Shown in pieces: positions 44,330 through 59,592 of a stretch of DNA of 64,000 bases. This stretch comes from Gemmatimonas aurantiaca T-27 (GTDB lineage: Bacteria > Gemmatimonadota > Gemmatimonadetes > Gemmatimonadales > Gemmatimonadaceae). Below the pieces are notes generated by a model. The model did no database searches. It saw only the letters and a list, made by a program, of their open reading frames with translations, and was not told where the DNA came from. The first letter of the stretch is position 1, and each line of letters opens with the position of its first letter. Position numbers and translations under genes: made by a program. Location of the stretch: the NCBI RefSeq assembly GCF_000010305.1, contig NC_012489.1, forward strand, positions 2,673,646 through 2,737,645, written 5' to 3'.

Positions 44330-45541
44330 ATGTCGAAGCGACCACACAAGCCCGCGTCGCCAATGCGTTCCCGCCCCCTGTATGTCAGCGCCGCCTTCTT
44401 GGGTGGCATCTTGTGCCTCGCCCCTGCCTCTGCGAGTGCGCAATCCGGTTCCGCCAGCGCCAACCCGCCTGGCACGGGCACTGTGCGTGGTGCCATCACC
44501 ACGCTGGATGGCGTGCCAGTGGGTGGTGCGACGGTACGCCTGGTCAGTGAGCGCGCCGTCCTGACGATCGTGTCGGAGTCTGATGACAACGGCAATGTGA
44601 TCTTCACCAAGGTGCCCGAAGGGCGCGGGTGGATGCATGCGCGTCGCATCGGCTTCCGTCCGGATTCGATTCCAGTGACCATCTCCGGCGATCAACCTCC
44701 ACTGGCCACACTGAGCATGACGCGCGTGGCGGTGGAACTGAGCGCCGTGCGTGTGCTCGGCCGTCGTGAGATCCCCGGTCCCATGGGCGGATTCTTCCGT
44801 CGCATGCAGCAGAACGGTGGCGGGCACTTTTTTTCGGCCGCAGAACTCGAACGCCGTAATCCGTCGAACATGACCGACGTGTTCCGGCACATTCCCGGCA
44901 TGCGCATCGAATCGAATGGACCGATCAATCGGGTCCGCATGCGCAACAGCCGCTGCGCGCCATTGGTGTGGCTCGATGGACAGCCTCTGTTCGCCGGAGA
45001 AGTGGACCTCGACGGTTTTGATCCCCGCACCTTCGAGGGGATCGAGATCTACAGTGGTCCGGCCTCCGTGCCGGTGGAGTTCCAGGGCAATCAGCGCATG
45101 AGCAGTGCCTGCGGCACCATCGTGCTGTGGTCCAAGCGCGGTGAGCTGCGCCCGAAGCGACGCAAGAAGGACGACCCCACACCATCGGCATTGATCGCCC
45201 AGTTGGTGGAAAAGGGTGAAGCATTTGTCGCCAACGACGTGGATGGCGCAGCCTATCCCGATTCGTCATCGCTGGTGAAACCTCTCTATCCGGACTCCCT
45301 GTTCGAGGCGCAGATTCCAGGAGCGGTGCTCGTGGAATTCGTGGTGGACCTCAAGGGGCGGGCCATGATGGAGACCTTCAGTGCGGTCACCACCACACAC
45401 CGACAATTGGTGGAACCCGTACGACGCGCGGTGCAACAGCAGGAGTTCTATCCTGCCAGCCGCCGAGGAAAGGTGGTGCAGCAAGTGATGCAGCTACCGT
45501 TCCTTTTTGTTCCTGACTCCACGGCCAGACGGAGACGCTGA
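44330..45541 (+). CDS. Plug-domain protein with carboxypeptidase-regulatory and TonB-C-like domains
   Basis: The 403-residue protein has a signal peptide (cleaved near SASAQSG), a carboxypeptidase-regulatory domain (about 40-130, GTVRGAITTLDGVPVGG), and a TonB-receptor plug. The plug runs from about 145 to 270: AELERRNPSNMTDVFRHIPGMRI, APLVWLDGQPLF, SACGTIVLWS. No barrel follows. The C-terminal part (about 305-395, GAVLVEFVVDLKGRAMMETF) resembles the TonB C-terminal/energy-transducer fold. A receptor plug fused to a TonB-C-like domain in one exported protein is unusual. The next gene starts directly after its stop codon. Confidence 0.8.
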   Translation: MSKRPHKPASPMRSRPLYVSAAFLGGILCLAPASASAQSGSASANPPGTGTVRGAITTLDGVPVGGATVRLVSERAVLTIVSESDDNGNVIFTKVPEGRGWMHARRIGFRPDSIPVTISGDQPPLATLSMTRVAVELSAVRVLGRREIPGPMGGFFRRMQQNGGGHFFSAAELERRNPSNMTDVFRHIPGMRIESNGPINRVRMRNSRCAPLVWLDGQPLFAGEVDLDGFDPRTFEGIEIYSGPASVPVEFQGNQRMSSACGTIVLWSKRGELRPKRRKKDDPTPSALIAQLVEKGEAFVANDVDGAAYPDSSSLVKPLYPDSLFEAQIPGAVLVEFVVDLKGRAMMETFSAVTTTHRQLVEPVRRAVQQQEFYPASRRGKVVQQVMQLPFLFVPDSTARRRR

Positions 45542-45964
45542 GTGGTTTGTGCAACACGATGGGGACGAGGAGTGTTGGCAATGACCGCACTCCTCGGTGG
45601 TACACGAATCGCGCATGGACAGTCGGCCAGCGCCCTCAAGGAAATCGGTAAGACCTCGGTAGGCACGCCGGTTTTTCTTGAAACGAAGTCGGTATCCCGG
45701 GCGGGGGATGTGGTCACCGCCACCGTGCGCGTGAAATTGCAGCCGCCGATCAAGAACGGCGCACAGGAGTTGCGTAGTTCGCGGGCGATCGGCATGTACG
45801 ACTGCGTCAAACAAACCGTGGCGACCAAAGAAAGCTGGTACTTCACGGATGATGCCGGACGCAAGGAAGGCATGCACCGCACGGTCAAGGTGCCCGGATT
45901 CGGGCCAGCCCTCAAAGGATCTCTCGCCGATGTGGTATTGAAACACTTATGCACAAAGCCCTAA
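45542..45964 (+). CDS. Exported surface-adhesin E-like domain protein
   Basis: The 140-residue protein starts with a signal-like region and has the pattern of adhesin-E-type domains. VFLETKSVSRAGDVV is followed by YDCVKQTVATKESWYFTDDAG and a C-terminal SLADVVLKHLCTK with paired Cys. GTG at 45542 abuts the preceding stop, and an ATG at 45581 with a GGAG site is an alternative. It overlaps the next gene by 16 nt. The function is a surface or binding role by family analogy only. Confidence 0.7.
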   Translation: MVCATRWGRGVLAMTALLGGTRIAHGQSASALKEIGKTSVGTPVFLETKSVSRAGDVVTATVRVKLQPPIKNGAQELRSSRAIGMYDCVKQTVATKESWYFTDDAGRKEGMHRTVKVPGFGPALKGSLADVVLKHLCTKP

Positions 45965-47406
45965 CGCGATTCGCGCTTTCCCTGATCGGGTCGACGGTCT
46001 TCTGGTCGACCCCCGTCGCGGCGCAGCCCATGCGCGCGCTGGGAACGGTGCGAGGTATTGTATTCGACAGTCTCACACGGAAACCGCTGACAGACGCGGT
46101 CGTGGAAGTACGGGAGACCGCACGACTCGCCTATACCGATAAACAAGGTCGGTTCACGCTGGACTCGGTACCGATCGGGGCGCAGCAACTGTCGTTCTCC
46201 TCGCCGACGCTCGATTCGCTCGGGGTCTACGGGTTTGCGCGGGAGATCGACGTCACGTCCGACACCCGGGGGGTGGCGTTGTCGACGCCGTCGTTCCGCA
46301 CTGTGTACGATCGCCTGTGCCCCGCGGCCGGCAACGCGCCACGGGACAGCGCCATCGTGTTTGGCACCGTGTATGATGCCGCGACTCGCGCCCCCATCAG
46401 CAAGGCGAGCGTCACGCTGCGCTGGTATGAAACCGGGGGCGACGGTCGCGATTTCCTGATCCTCACGCCGGAACGCAGCACGTTCACCGCAGACGACGGT
46501 GTGTATGGCATCTGCGGTGTACCCTCCGATCTCGCGCTGAGCACATCGGCGGCTCACGATTCCGCGACCAGCGGCACATTCAGCACGGTCGTCGGAGCCA
46601 GTCGCCTGCTGCGCCGCGATCTGTATGTCAGCCGCGAACTCACCAGTGCGGTAGCGGCAGACACGGGCACTCGTGCGCCGCAGGGAACAGGTGTGGTGCG
46701 CGGGACCGTGCGGGATGAAAGTGGCAATGCGCTGGTGGGGGCTTTGGTTGTGCTCACCACGGTGGATCGCACTACGCACACCGATTCACTGGGTCGCTAC
46801 CGCTTTGGCAACGTACCGCTTGGCACGCAGGAACTCAGTGTGCGGCAGCTGGGACGTGGCGCACTGTATCGCGTCATTGATGTCACAAGGGTGGAGGGCA
46901 GCACGCATGACTTCGTGTTGCCGGTGGCCACGGTACTGGCCACGATGAATGTGCGCGGCACAGCGCGGATGGGCGTGGACCAGGCCGGCTTCCTGCGACG
47001 CAAGCGCCAGGGGTTTGCGAGGATCATCGAACATGAGGAAATCCAGAAGCGCTACGACATTGGTTCGGCGCTGGCACGGATACCGGGACTTCGCGTGAAT
47101 CGTTCGATGGGGGGAACGGAGGTCGTGGGTTCCCGCGCGGTCTGCAATTCTCCGATTCCGATCGTCCTGGACGGGGTGCCCATGCGTATGTACGGGAACA
47201 ACTCCACCATCTCGCGTGAAGCCAACTCTGCGGTGCCTCAGATGCCGACCAACGGCTCACGACTCGACGCATTGGCTGTCAGCGATGTGGTAGCCATCGA
47301 GTATCATCCGGGGGGCGCCACCATCCCGATGGAGTATTGGCAGGGCATGCCCCCGACATGTGGACTTATTCTCATATGGACCGTCTTCTCCCGCCGGCAA
47401 CAATGA
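45949..47406 (+). CDS. Three carboxypeptidase-regulatory domains + plug, no barrel (copy A)
   Basis: The 485-residue protein has a signal peptide (cleaved near VAAQP). Three carboxypeptidase-regulatory-like domains follow, beginning near residues 31, 137 and 247 (GTVRGIVFDSLTRKPL, IVFGTVYDAATRAPI, GVVRGTVRDESGNAL). A plug-like domain (about 325-480) has AGFLRRKRQGFARII, RIPGLRVNRSMGG and the end motif MPPTCGLILIWT. There is no TonB-dependent barrel, so it cannot be a channel itself. It overlaps the preceding gene by 16 nt. It is paralogous to the next gene and to the decayed copy beyond. Confidence 0.82.
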   Translation: MHKALTRFALSLIGSTVFWSTPVAAQPMRALGTVRGIVFDSLTRKPLTDAVVEVRETARLAYTDKQGRFTLDSVPIGAQQLSFSSPTLDSLGVYGFAREIDVTSDTRGVALSTPSFRTVYDRLCPAAGNAPRDSAIVFGTVYDAATRAPISKASVTLRWYETGGDGRDFLILTPERSTFTADDGVYGICGVPSDLALSTSAAHDSATSGTFSTVVGASRLLRRDLYVSRELTSAVAADTGTRAPQGTGVVRGTVRDESGNALVGALVVLTTVDRTTHTDSLGRYRFGNVPLGTQELSVRQLGRGALYRVIDVTRVEGSTHDFVLPVATVLATMNVRGTARMGVDQAGFLRRKRQGFARIIEHEEIQKRYDIGSALARIPGLRVNRSMGGTEVVGSRAVCNSPIPIVLDGVPMRMYGNNSTISREANSAVPQMPTNGSRLDALAVSDVVAIEYHPGGATIPMEYWQGMPPTCGLILIWTVFSRRQQ

Positions 47407-47414
47407 GGAGTTTT

Positions 47415-48920
47415 ATGCGCACCATACAGCCAATCCCGTTCAGACTGCTGCTGTCCGCCGTATTGCTCGCCCCCTGTGCCCTGCCAGCCCAACCGCGTGG
47501 ACCCGTCGGTAGTGTGCGCGGCACCGTGTACGACAGTCTCACACGCAAGCCGATTGTCGATGCCGTGATCGAAGTGCAAGCGACCGCACAGATCACCTAT
47601 TCCGATGCGCAAGGTCGCTTCACGCTCGACTCGGTACCGCTTGGGGTCCAGCAACTGACTTTCTCGTCGGCGACGCTCGACTCCCTTGGCCTCTATGGGT
47701 TTGCGCGCGAAGTGGATGTCACCAGCGATACACGCGGTGTGTTACTGACCACTCCGTCGTTCGGCACGATGTACGGCCGTCTCTGCGCGACCGCAGGGAG
47801 TCCGTCCAGAGACAGTGCTATCGTCTTCGGCACGGTCTACGACGCCGCCAGTCGCACCCCGTTGAGCAAAGCGCAGGTTTCATTGCGGTGGCTTCAGTCC
47901 AGTGAAGGCGGAAAGGAGTTGAGCAACCCGGAACGTACCACCGCCACCGGAGACGATGGCGTGTACGGCATCTGCGGGCTTCCCGCGGATGTCGCGCTCA
48001 CCACGACGGCCCAACACGACGCGATCGTCAGTGGTGCGTTCAACACGGTCGTTGGACCGAGCCGAATGCTGCGGCGTGACTTCTACATCAGTCGCGAACT
48101 GGGGCAGGCGGCCGACGTCCGGACCAACGCCACGCCCTCATCGGGATCAGGTATCGTCCGTGGAACCGTGCGCTACGAACGGGGCAAAGCATTGCCGGGT
48201 GCACTCGTTTCGCTAATCGCCGGCAATCGTTCGACCGAGACCGACGCTGAGGGGCAATTCCGTTTGACGGGTGTGCCGCTGGGTACGCAGGAACTGAACG
48301 TTCAGCAGATCGGACGCGGCGGAGTCAGCCGCGCCATCGACGTCACGGCGCGTGACGATGGCACACACGATTTCGTGCTGCGGGGCACCACGGTGCTCGC
48401 CACCATGAACGTGCGTGGGAAGGTCGGCGCGGATCAGGCCGGGTTTCTCCGACGCAAGCAGGACGGCATGGTCAGGGTCGTCGAACGCGAGGAAATCCTG
48501 AAGCGCAGTGATATCGGTTCGGCGCTGAAGCGTCTGCCGGGCCTGCGCGTGGCACAAAAACTGGGGGGCACGGTGATTGAGGCCACGCGACCGATGTGCG
48601 TCGGGCAGGTACCCATCGTGATTGATGGCGCCCTCATACCAAATCCACGAAACACCACCACCTTCAGCGTCCCGCAGGCATTGTCCGGGACGACAGCGAT
48701 CCCGCGCGCAACAACCACCCCTGCCCCGTCCCGAGCTGCGCAAAGCAGCGTCGTTTCAGCCGCCAATAACGCGCGTGTTGACCAGTTGATGGTCAACGAT
48801 GTCCTGGCGATCGAGTTCCATCCTGGACCGGCTTCTGTTCCCATGGAGTATTGGCCAGGCCCACCGCCACAGTGCGGCCTGCTGCTCATTTGGACGGTGG
48901 CTTCGAACTGGGACAAGTGA
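47415..48920 (+). CDS. Carboxypeptidase-regulatory + plug protein, no barrel (copy B)
   Basis: The 501-residue protein is a close paralogue of copy A with the same order: signal peptide, three regulatory-like domains (GSVRGTVYDSLTRKPI, IVFGTVYDAASRTPL, GIVRGTVRYERGKAL) and a plug-like end (FLRRKQDGMVRVVE, RLPGLRVAQKLGG, MEYWPGPPPQCGLL). It has an extra Ala/Ser/Pro-rich stretch before the last motif. The ATG at 47415 follows GAGGAG closely; an ATG at 47403 overlapping the previous stop is the alternative. A decayed third copy starts in its stop codon (TGATG). Confidence 0.82.
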   Translation: MRTIQPIPFRLLLSAVLLAPCALPAQPRGPVGSVRGTVYDSLTRKPIVDAVIEVQATAQITYSDAQGRFTLDSVPLGVQQLTFSSATLDSLGLYGFAREVDVTSDTRGVLLTTPSFGTMYGRLCATAGSPSRDSAIVFGTVYDAASRTPLSKAQVSLRWLQSSEGGKELSNPERTTATGDDGVYGICGLPADVALTTTAQHDAIVSGAFNTVVGPSRMLRRDFYISRELGQAADVRTNATPSSGSGIVRGTVRYERGKALPGALVSLIAGNRSTETDAEGQFRLTGVPLGTQELNVQQIGRGGVSRAIDVTARDDGTHDFVLRGTTVLATMNVRGKVGADQAGFLRRKQDGMVRVVEREEILKRSDIGSALKRLPGLRVAQKLGGTVIEATRPMCVGQVPIVIDGALIPNPRNTTTFSVPQALSGTTAIPRATTTPAPSRAAQSSVVSAANNARVDQLMVNDVLAIEFHPGPASVPMEYWPGPPPQCGLLLIWTVASNWDK

Positions 48921-49269
48921 TGCGCATTCACGCTTGGCTCACCATGCCCTTGCTACTGGTTCCCACGTTGGCGGCCGCGCAGCCGCAGTGATCGGTCGGA
49001 ACCGTGCGAGGCATCGTATATGACAGTCTTACGCGTCGACCGCTACGAGAGCCGTGATCGAGGTGCGGGAGACCGCGCAGATCACCTACAGCGATGCACA
49101 GGGTCGCTTCACGATCGACTCCGTGCCGCTCGGGGCGCAACAGTTGACCTTTTCGTCGCCGACACTCGACTTGCTTGGCCTCTATGGGTTTGCCCGCGAC
49201 GTGATGGGTACCCCACCTTCGTGTGGCCTGATCATCATCTGGACCACATTCTCCCGCTGGTCCCGCTGA
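48920..49269 (+). pseudogene. Decayed third copy of the plug-protein family
   Basis: The frame starts at 48920 with a recognisable signal peptide (MRIHAWLTMPLLLVPTLAAA), then meets a TGA where a family codon should be, just before SVGTVRG. A one-base deletion follows near 49050 after RRPLR, shifting the frame. The regulatory domain resumes (VIEVRETAQITYSDAQGRF to GFARDV) and then jumps directly to the family C-terminus (TPPSCGLIIIWTTFS). About 350 codons are missing. These three lesions show a pseudogene rather than a small gene. Confidence 0.88.
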
Positions 49270-57391: not shown

Positions 57392-57423
57392 CGAGAGGCG
57401 CATGATGAGTCATGCGCCTCTCG
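57392..57423 (+). promoter_or_regulatory. Hairpin over the TonB receptor start codon
   Basis: Perfect 14-bp arms (57392-57405 and 57410-57423) have a TGAG loop. The upstream arm contains the SD-like GAGAGG and the downstream arm contains the ATG at 57412. Folding would block initiation. Confidence 0.65.
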
Positions 57424-59592
57424 CATTTGCTACCCATGGTCTTCCTGCTTTGGGGAACCATGCCACTGAACATGCTGCACGCCCAGCAGCCCTCCTCTCC
57501 GACGGCAACCACGGTGACGGGTCGTGTGCATACCGCCGACGGACGTGGGCTCGCGGGTGCGGTGGTCGCCATTCTCGAAACACTCGAGGAGACACACACC
57601 GGCAGCGATGGCCACTTCGTGCTCACGTCCACCCACCGCGGTGTGGCCACCCTCGTTGCACGCGCGGTGGGCTTCGTTCCATCGACGATCGATATGGTGG
57701 TGCCGAGCGACTCGATGTTCGTGTTCCGGCTGGTGCCACGTCCTCCCACGCTCACGCAGTTCGTGGTGGTGGCTGCCGGGGAATACACCATCGGCAGCGG
57801 TCAGACCGCCTCACTCAAGCCACTCGAAGTCGCGCAGACCCCAGGCGCTGCGGCCAATATCGCCCGCGCCATCCAGACATTGCCTGGAGCGCAGAACGTG
57901 GACGAAGGCACGGGGCTCTTTGTGCGCGGCGGCGATGTCACCGAGACGCGCGTGCTGGTTGACGACGCCTGGATGCTGTCTCCCGTGCGCTTCGACAATC
58001 CCACCGGCCACACGACCGTCACGGTCAATCCGTTCCTGCTCGATCGCACCGTGTTTTCATCGGGCGGGTTTGGTGTGCCGCACGGCAACGCGCTCTCGGG
58101 ATTGGTGCGCATGGAAAGTGCAGCAGCGCCCGCGCGACAGACGGCATCGTTGTCGGCCTCCATCGGTGGCGTCAGTGCGGCCTACGGAACACGACTGCAT
58201 CCCCGTGTGGGAATGCGGGCATCGGCCGGACTCAACTCCCTCGCGGCCCTGACCGCCACGTTCGGTGAGGCCCAGCCCTACGAACCACCACCACGCAGTG
58301 GTGACGTCAGTGGCTCGCTCGAGTGGCAATCAGGCGCTGCAGGACGTGTGCGGCTGTTCGCGGTGCGGCAAGGTGGTGTCTTTGGCGTGGGCCAGGCCGG
58401 CGTGGGAAGCACATCCCACTACGGTGCACGATCCGCCGATGGACTGGCTGTGCTCTCGTGGCGCGACAGCAGCACGACATGGCGTCCCGCCGTGACCGTC
58501 GCATACGCGTCCTTCGACCGCAATGAGACATTCGGCACCTTCCAACTGCGCACACGGTTGTCGGCGCCACAGCTATTGGCATCACTCGGCTACGTCACAA
58601 CCGATGGCACGCGGTGGCGTGTGGGCGCCGAACGCGAGGCTCTGTCGGCGGCATACGCTGGACACATGCGCACGACAACCGGCGAATGGTCTCCCGTGTT
58701 CACAGAGCGCACACCGAGCACCCGCATTGGCGCGTTTGTCGAAGGCAGTCGTCGGTTCGCCTCCGGATTTCACGCCACGCTGGGACTGCGCACCGATCAG
58801 AGTTCACTGACCGGGCGGCGCACCTACGACCCGCGTGTATCGTTGGCCTGGCAGCGCGGTGCGTTGGCGCTGACCTCGGCCTGGGGCGTGTACCATCAGG
58901 TGGCGGAGCCCACCTACCGTCGCGCATTGCCGGCCAGTGCCTTCTCCCCCATGCGCGTGCACCAGTTCATCGGCGGCGTGCAATGGGGCGCCGATACACT
59001 GGGGCTCCGCATCGAGTACTTCGACAAACGGTATGCAGATCTCTGGCAGTTTGCCGACCGTCAGGAGCCGGTGGGCAATGGGACGGGTCGGGCGAATGGC
59101 GTGGACATCATGTGGCGATGGCGGTTGGCCCAGGCCACGTCCACACGGGTCACCTACAGCCATGTGCGCTCCCGTCGCACTGATCCGCACAGCGGCCTGA
59201 TGGCGCGCTCCCTGGCCGACATCACACACTCCGTGACATGGATCGGGGAACATGTGCATCGCAGTCTCACGATGGGCACCTCGGTGCGGTATGCGACGGG
59301 AAAGCCCTTCACTGATATCGTCGGCGCAAGACCGGACGAAGGTCTCGCCGCACCGGTGTATGACGATCCGTTTGCGGCCCGTATGCCCGCCTATCTGCGC
59401 AGCGATGTGTCTCTGAGCTGGTATCGCGCGCTCGGCGAACGTCGCGGCCTCGTGCTCTGGGGTAGTCTGTCCAATGTACTTGGCCGTGAAAACGTGATGC
59501 GGTACCGCTGGTCGGAGGACTACTCCGTGCGATTCCCCGTGCATGCGCCCTTCAATCGTTCGATCTTCATCGGCACCACCCTTCTGCTGTGA
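57412..59592 (+). CDS. TonB-dependent receptor
   Basis: The 726-residue receptor has a signal peptide (cleaved near LHAQQ), a carboxypeptidase-regulatory domain (about 35-105) and a plug (TPGAAANIARAIQTLPGAQ, GLFVRGGDVTETRVLVDD). A barrel ends in aromatic-rich strands (RSIFIGTTLLL). It is a stand-alone receptor without SusD. The start is inside a perfect hairpin; ATG 57436 is an alternative. A TPR-like gene follows and overlaps or abuts it, then a two-component pair. Confidence 0.9.
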   Translation: MRLSHLLPMVFLLWGTMPLNMLHAQQPSSPTATTVTGRVHTADGRGLAGAVVAILETLEETHTGSDGHFVLTSTHRGVATLVARAVGFVPSTIDMVVPSDSMFVFRLVPRPPTLTQFVVVAAGEYTIGSGQTASLKPLEVAQTPGAAANIARAIQTLPGAQNVDEGTGLFVRGGDVTETRVLVDDAWMLSPVRFDNPTGHTTVTVNPFLLDRTVFSSGGFGVPHGNALSGLVRMESAAAPARQTASLSASIGGVSAAYGTRLHPRVGMRASAGLNSLAALTATFGEAQPYEPPPRSGDVSGSLEWQSGAAGRVRLFAVRQGGVFGVGQAGVGSTSHYGARSADGLAVLSWRDSSTTWRPAVTVAYASFDRNETFGTFQLRTRLSAPQLLASLGYVTTDGTRWRVGAEREALSAAYAGHMRTTTGEWSPVFTERTPSTRIGAFVEGSRRFASGFHATLGLRTDQSSLTGRRTYDPRVSLAWQRGALALTSAWGVYHQVAEPTYRRALPASAFSPMRVHQFIGGVQWGADTLGLRIEYFDKRYADLWQFADRQEPVGNGTGRANGVDIMWRWRLAQATSTRVTYSHVRSRRTDPHSGLMARSLADITHSVTWIGEHVHRSLTMGTSVRYATGKPFTDIVGARPDEGLAAPVYDDPFAARMPAYLRSDVSLSWYRALGERRGLVLWGSLSNVLGRENVMRYRWSEDYSVRFPVHAPFNRSIFIGTTLLL

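Follow-up and report, generated by a model that had tools for sequence, protein, structure and literature searches.

Domain architecture of the array

The soil bacterium Gemmatimonas aurantiaca, strain T-27, carries at positions 44330 to 49269 of the window an array of five closely spaced frames on the forward strand, three of which encode intact proteins that have the plug domain of TonB-dependent transporters (TBDTs) and lack the beta-barrel. The window is the whole stretch of 64,000 nucleotides that was analyzed (C1:2673646-2737645, where C1 is the contig of a single-contig genome of 4,636,964 bases). To our knowledge plugs have been taken as meaningless without a barrel, and barrel-less plug proteins, including the one in this array that is fused to a TonB C-terminal domain (TonB_C), are a new arrangement of known domains. 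The original prediction for this DNA described an operon of five exported plug proteins with carboxypeptidase-regulatory repeats and no barrel, expanded by tandem duplication; frames 1, 3 and 4 do have this make-up and are intact, but frame 2 has no such domain and frame 5 is a remnant.

Frame 1 (44363 to 45541, 392 amino acids, predicted to be exported; an upstream ATG at 44330 is an alternative start) is the protein that adds a TonB_C domain, as had been predicted. It scores over the curated Pfam cut-offs for CarboxypepD_reg, Plug (about 40.5 bits versus a cut-off of 23.9) and TonB_C (29.2 versus 24.6 bits), with no match to the barrel model PF00593 in the Pfam scan. Its orthologues share this composition, Plug and the carboxypeptidase-regulatory domain (CPD) each being found by Pfam in 28 of 28 and TonB_C in 27, the 28th sequence ending at a contig edge. 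The chain opens with a putative signal peptide at 44363 to 44440 (MRSRPLYVSAAFLGGILCLAPASASA, followed by Q), assigned by inspection only; on the same basis the N-terminus resembles a cleavable signal peptide rather than a clear inner-membrane anchor, and many of the orthologues likewise have a hydrophobic N-terminus that runs up to an AQ-type site. There follow a CPD of the transthyretin (TTR)-like type (44480 to 44719; Pfam residues 40-119), a TonB-box-like segment, LSAVRVLGRR (44738 to 44767), the plug (44801 to 45145) and TonB_C (45242 to 45520). By inspection, a basic linker, RPKRRKKDD, connects the plug to TonB_C, and no proline-rich, periplasm-spanning linker is found in the frame.

Structure prediction had been named as the test that could refute the assignment of these domains to receptor plugs and TonB C-terminal domains; for frame 1 it did not refute it. 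An AlphaFold2 model of frame 1, built from 28 orthologues with a mean predicted local distance difference test (pLDDT) score of 83.9, was compared with solved structures. Residues 147-261 match the plug of the SusC BT1763 complex (6z9a_B, Z 9.9, 3.1 Å, 103 residues aligned) and those of the TBDTs FyuA (4epa, Z 9.4) and OprC (6z91, Z 9.2), while residues 294-386 match a TonB C-terminal domain (6i97_D, Z 10.9, 1.6 Å, 89 of 90 residues aligned) and BtuB-bound TonB (2gsk_B, Z 9.3, 1.6 Å). For residues 39-123 the matches are to carboxypeptidase D, in its TTR-like domain (5aq0_B, Z 12.5, 1.5 Å), and to the N-terminal extension (NTE) of SusC (9hfj, Z 11.5). The frame 1 profile alone also matches TBDTs of the PDB, these being SusC homologues, over NTE and plug (9gbc_A, 1.7e-11; 5t3r_D, 6.1e-11), together with several TonB chains.

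Frame 3 (45949 to 47406, 485 amino acids) and frame 4 (47415 to 48920, 501 amino acids) each contain three CarboxypepD_reg stretches recognized by Pfam. Their Plug matches are weak and below the Pfam cut-off (21.8 and 18.0 bits); with the plug-family profile A1, described below, they score 112.9 and 101.5 bits. An AlphaFold2 model of frame 3 (pLDDT 76.9) has three TTR-like domains followed by a plug-like part, in which helices and strands come in the same order as in the frame 1 plug, at lower model confidence. Residues 248-327 match the TTR-like fold of 2nsm (Z 14.6). The matches listed in a structure search with this model were taken up by TTR-like domains, so that the plug fold of frame 3 rests on the sequence profile and the order of elements. 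Close relatives of frame 3 occur in few genomes of the genus, at 47-52% identity. We note that in the three-TTR subfamily formed by 45949-47406 and its relatives the middle domain contains a further pair of conserved cysteines, spaced by about 64 residues.

The proposed tandem duplication is backed for frames 3 and 4, which are 59% identical and match each other at 555.6 bits, compared with 148.5 bits for the next paralogue, and for frame 5 (48920 to 49269), which is a decayed third copy. The DNA of frame 5 is 77% identical to that of frame 4 over 228 nucleotides, and it was rejected as a gene because it has a premature stop codon (TGA, 48989-48991), is shifted by one base and lacks most of the gene middle. 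Third codon positions change about twice as often as first and second positions when frame 3 is compared with frame 4, and likewise when frame 1 is compared with its orthologues, which implies that frames 1, 3 and 4 are under coding constraint, as real genes are. Frame 2 (45542 to 45964, 140 amino acids, predicted to be exported) was rejected as a plug protein; it is a member of Adhesin_E (PF16747, 35.8 bits versus a cut-off of 23.7, with the whole domain covered), and the Pfam scan finds neither a plug nor a CPD in it.

The five frames do adjoin or overlap as had been described: the frame 1 stop at 45541 directly adjoins the frame 2 GTG at 45542, frames 2 and 3 share 16 nucleotides (45949-45964), the frame 3 stop (47404-47406) is followed by an 8-nucleotide gap and the frame 4 ATG at 47415, and frames 4 and 5 meet in a TGATG overlap (48918-48922).

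A phylum-wide family of plugs with paired cysteines

The genome-wide search for plug-only proteins suggested in the original prediction was made with A1, a profile of the plug region that we used for both genome and phylum searches. It recovers 19 members in the G. aurantiaca genome at 100-144 bits, the best genuine TBDT scoring 28.6 bits, and the plug-only proteins form a discrete family. The chain ends within about 25 residues after the plug in all 19 members except frame 1, which is the only one to add TonB_C. The Pfam Plug model at an E-value of 0.001 misses 13 of the 19 but finds the other six, and so the number of receptors cannot be read from plug counts alone. Further tandem groups, each of three members, lie at C1:3570055-3572367 and C1:1621317-1628306, and a divergent pair lies at C1:1445350-1446190. 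A plug-only array at C1:1610000-1629900 (locus L144) includes two large frames of 651 and 772 amino acids with an extra, uncharacterised middle domain.

Across the phylum a family member is present in 157 of 200 sampled genomes and in 67 of 93 genera, with up to at least 20 members per genome among the matches listed; the family is old, real and phylum-wide. No paper on barrel-less plug proteins in Gemmatimonadota was found in the literature, most subscription journals lying outside the coverage of that search. The relationship to receptor plugs is evident from a profile comparison in which the family matches the TBDT plugs of the same genome (probability 97.9, E-value 3.9e-13), aligning from an LxxVxV strand onward, such that LSAVRVLGRR of frame 1 falls at the TonB-box position, LxxVVVTA, of those plugs. 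Positions 1, 4 and 6 of this strand have entropies of 0.00, 1.12 and 0.94 among 93 sequences, compared with a mean of 2.11. A family-specific motif, F..RR..G.G.F, precedes the plug, with R conserved in 91 of 92 sequences and the glycines in 85 and 83.

Two cysteines distinguish these plugs, the first immediately ahead of an xxVDG turn and the second within the last strand, CGxIxxWT, corresponding in frame 1 to Cys198 (44954 to 44956) and to Cys250 within CGTIVLWS (45110 to 45112). Both are invariant in all 19 members of the genome. Among 94 relatives, 87 have both cysteines, seven have neither and none has only one; the automatic count was 86, seven and one, but the single case (L075, which is frame 3 of the window) has both, the first having been misaligned. 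The seven losses sit in two supported clades (L119, L120, L121 and L178; L123 and L127), which points to about two loss events. Since the cysteines are lost only as a pair, a disulfide between them, Cys198-Cys250 in frame 1, is implied and probably forms. According to a review (PMC11658791), the FepA plug on its own behaved like an unfolded polypeptide, and transport by FepA was blocked when disulfides were engineered within its plug. By analogy, a plug stapled in this way would be stable without a barrel and yet useless as a gate. A different type of barrel-less plug protein, at C1:3415384-3416073 (L141:585-1274), has 230 amino acids, a lipoprotein-like character and a SusC-type plug without the cysteine pair.

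Frame 1 and the TonB encoded at C1:2341698, a protein with canonical N-terminal hydrophobic and proline-rich regions, have TonB_C domains that are 44% identical, and the genome has six TonB_C matches in total. In addition, a small protein at C1:2117176-2117442 (L053/L184), predicted to be exported, consists of little beyond TonB_C behind a signal-peptide-like N-terminus.

A search of 99 genomes of one family gave more than 50 matches that span frame 1 from the CPD to TonB_C and represent about 20 genera; when the sample was widened to the phylum, the full-length matches among those listed all come from that same family and the others end after the plug. A tree of 93 plugs, which has few columns and weak inner forks, places all 47 fused sequences in one side of 50 rows with support of 100/99. 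The three unfused rows in that side are two contig-end truncations and one loss. It thus appears that the fusion of plug and TonB_C arose once and has been kept across about 20 genera of a single family. A separate scan of 84,980 species (A4), which recovers only close relatives of frame 1, gave 27 loci, nearly all named Gemmatimonadota, and a plasmid search gave matches in Gemmatirosa only. A frame 1-type gene also occurs in a metagenome-assembled genome (MAG) labelled Candidatus Kuenenia stuttgartiensis (L172); the tree groups it with Gemmatimonadota, which makes the label or the binning doubtful. In a Gemmatimonadaceae MAG (L183:5854-11614), two tandem frame 1-type genes lie directly upstream of a SusC-type receptor.

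A frame 1 orthologue is followed by a frame 2 orthologue in 17 of the 27 loci, and in relatives' loci with icd also in view frames 3 to 5 are absent. The presence of the pair without frames 3 to 5 elsewhere suggests that frames 1 and 2 are an old unit to which frames 3 to 5 were added later in this lineage. Only frames 1 and 2 are a conserved pair, and a five-gene ancestral operon is rejected by the comparison of relatives' loci. A promoter scan gave no signal above chance.

Proposed function and alternative readings

The architecture described above is firm: the domains, the missing barrel, a discrete and widespread family, cysteines that co-vary and, within the sample, a TonB_C fusion that persists after an apparently single origin; and a barrel-less, cysteine-paired plug family of this size means that a plug can exist and be selected alone. 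As to function, we tentatively favor, at somewhat less than an even chance, the view that frame 1 is a non-transport module of the TonB network, acting as an adaptor or titrator. Judged from its sequence, frame 1 is presumably exported and may bind TonB, a link for which its TonB-box-like segment, still in place, and its TonB_C domain argue. A barrel-less part of Oar from Myxococcus xanthus, comprising NTE and plug, binds the C-terminal domain of TonB1 in a two-hybrid assay (PMC6434023). The disulfide would keep the plug of frame 1 folded without a barrel, making it a rigid binding module and not a gate. Its free TonB_C could take hold of TonB boxes, either those of receptors or those of the other 18 plug-only proteins, a TonB of the genome could hold the TonB-box-like segment of frame 1 itself, and frame 1 might in this manner tune TonB-box occupancy without being a transporter. 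Those other 18 proteins would then be clients of TonB, or competitors for it, that have no second half of the couple.

A wider proposal holds that the Gemmatimonadota plugs are stable non-transport TonB clients and that the frame 1 lineage, in which both halves of the TonB/TonB-box couple sit in a single soluble protein, connects TonB in trans with receptors or with plug-only proteins, by relaying or by competing; taken whole, we regard this as rather unlikely, and we know of no regulatory layer of that kind on TonB-dependent uptake elsewhere. If TonB is bound, these proteins would be natural decoys or relays in a genome where some 30 receptors face only a few TonB_C proteins and may compete for TonB.

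Several observations weigh against a TonB-linked role. The LxxVxV strand is a loose motif that may be retained for folding, and 18 of the 19 members have no TonB_C, so the fusion cannot account for the family. There is also no enrichment of plug-only genes near TBDT genes, a TBDT being present in two of 20 regions of 20 kb around plug-only genes compared with four of 20 control regions, and two of 13 clusters in the G. aurantiaca genome lying within 6 kb of a TBDT compared with 1.2 expected.

The strongest rival reading takes the plug and TTR-like domains to have become generic modules of exported proteins that bind a ligand, peptidoglycan, the matrix or a surface layer, and leaves TonB no role, in which case the TonB_C of frame 1 would bind peptidoglycan or dimerise. 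Most members being plug-only accords with this, as do the resemblance of the TTR-like repeats to adhesin and pilin modules in the structure searches and the Adhesin_E protein that is the conserved neighbor of frame 1. Moreover, F..RR..G.G.F is far more conserved than the TonB-box strand, which makes a new binding function plausible. However, the TonB-box position is still conserved, and the TonB_C fusion has been retained since its single origin across some 20 genera; we consider a generic binding role possible, if doubtful.

Cell-surface signalling, with TTR-plug proteins serving as signalling domains to anti-sigma factors or sensor proteases and the plug as the sensing module, is improbable. 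An M56/BlaR1-type protease with a plug fragment at its end (L142:367-1893, C1:2457866-2459392) and another M56-type protein that ends in TonB_C (L052, C1:1185182) suggest that both modules have become attached to likely sensors, and the signalling domain of FecA, when present on its own in the periplasm, competes with the intact protein (PMC9249621). Set against these, no recurrent neighbor is found around 31 loci besides the family itself and a SusC-type receptor (four loci).

We consider it unlikely, and a very small chance, that plug-only proteins enter barrels encoded elsewhere as interchangeable plugs of split receptors. When FhuA plug and barrel are exported separately, function is reportedly reconstituted, which lends the idea some support. 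However, a partner barrel in the vicinity is disfavored by the lack of receptor enrichment, an intraplug disulfide would, as with FepA, prevent gating, and no plugless barrel was found in this genome when barrel matches were checked for plugs. The barrels found share frames with their own plugs, and two candidates were rejected as orphan barrels: window positions 57412-59592, with no Pfam plug match but a divergent plug by eye, and C1:3785000-3788800 (L140), a frame-split SusC-type gene. The latter receptor is read as two overlapping frames of 346 and 662 amino acids, indicating a frameshift that is either genuine or an assembly error.

Finally, that these genes are decaying receptor remnants is scarcely credible: frame 5 truly is one, but the idea is refuted for frames 1, 3 and 4 by their coding constraint, by the more than 50 near-full-length relatives of frame 1 in its family and by the invariance of the cysteine pair and other motifs.

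Comparison with known systems

Frame 2 matches the whole domain of surface-adhesin protein E (PF16747), and its host is an environmental bacterium. A TonB_C-like stretch and a plug are already combined in one chain in the myxochelin receptor MxcH (NCBIfam NF038079), to which the TonB_C of frame 1 and the plug of frame 3 have weak matches of 14.7 and 16.7 bits, in different parts of the model and against a cut-off of 925. In the MxcH model, however, the TonB_C-like match is N-terminal, ahead of the plug, and MxcH is a full receptor, unlike frame 1. With the TonB energy transducer (PF03544) frame 1 has in common the fold of the C-terminal domain; it differs in having a signal-peptide-like N-terminus without a clear anchor or a proline-rich spacer, and in carrying a TTR-like domain and a plug ahead of TonB_C.

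In domain order frame 1 resembles the TBDTs of the SusC family and Oar (PMC6434023), whose succession of signal peptide, TTR-like NTE, TonB box and plug it follows with a putative signal peptide and a TonB-box-like segment, and the fold of the plug is shared between frame 1 and both SusC BT1763 and FyuA. In contrast to SusC and Oar, the barrel-less plug proteins have no beta-barrel, their chain either ending after the plug or continuing into TonB_C, and the family is further set apart by its invariant cysteine pair and by the motif F..RR..G.G.F.

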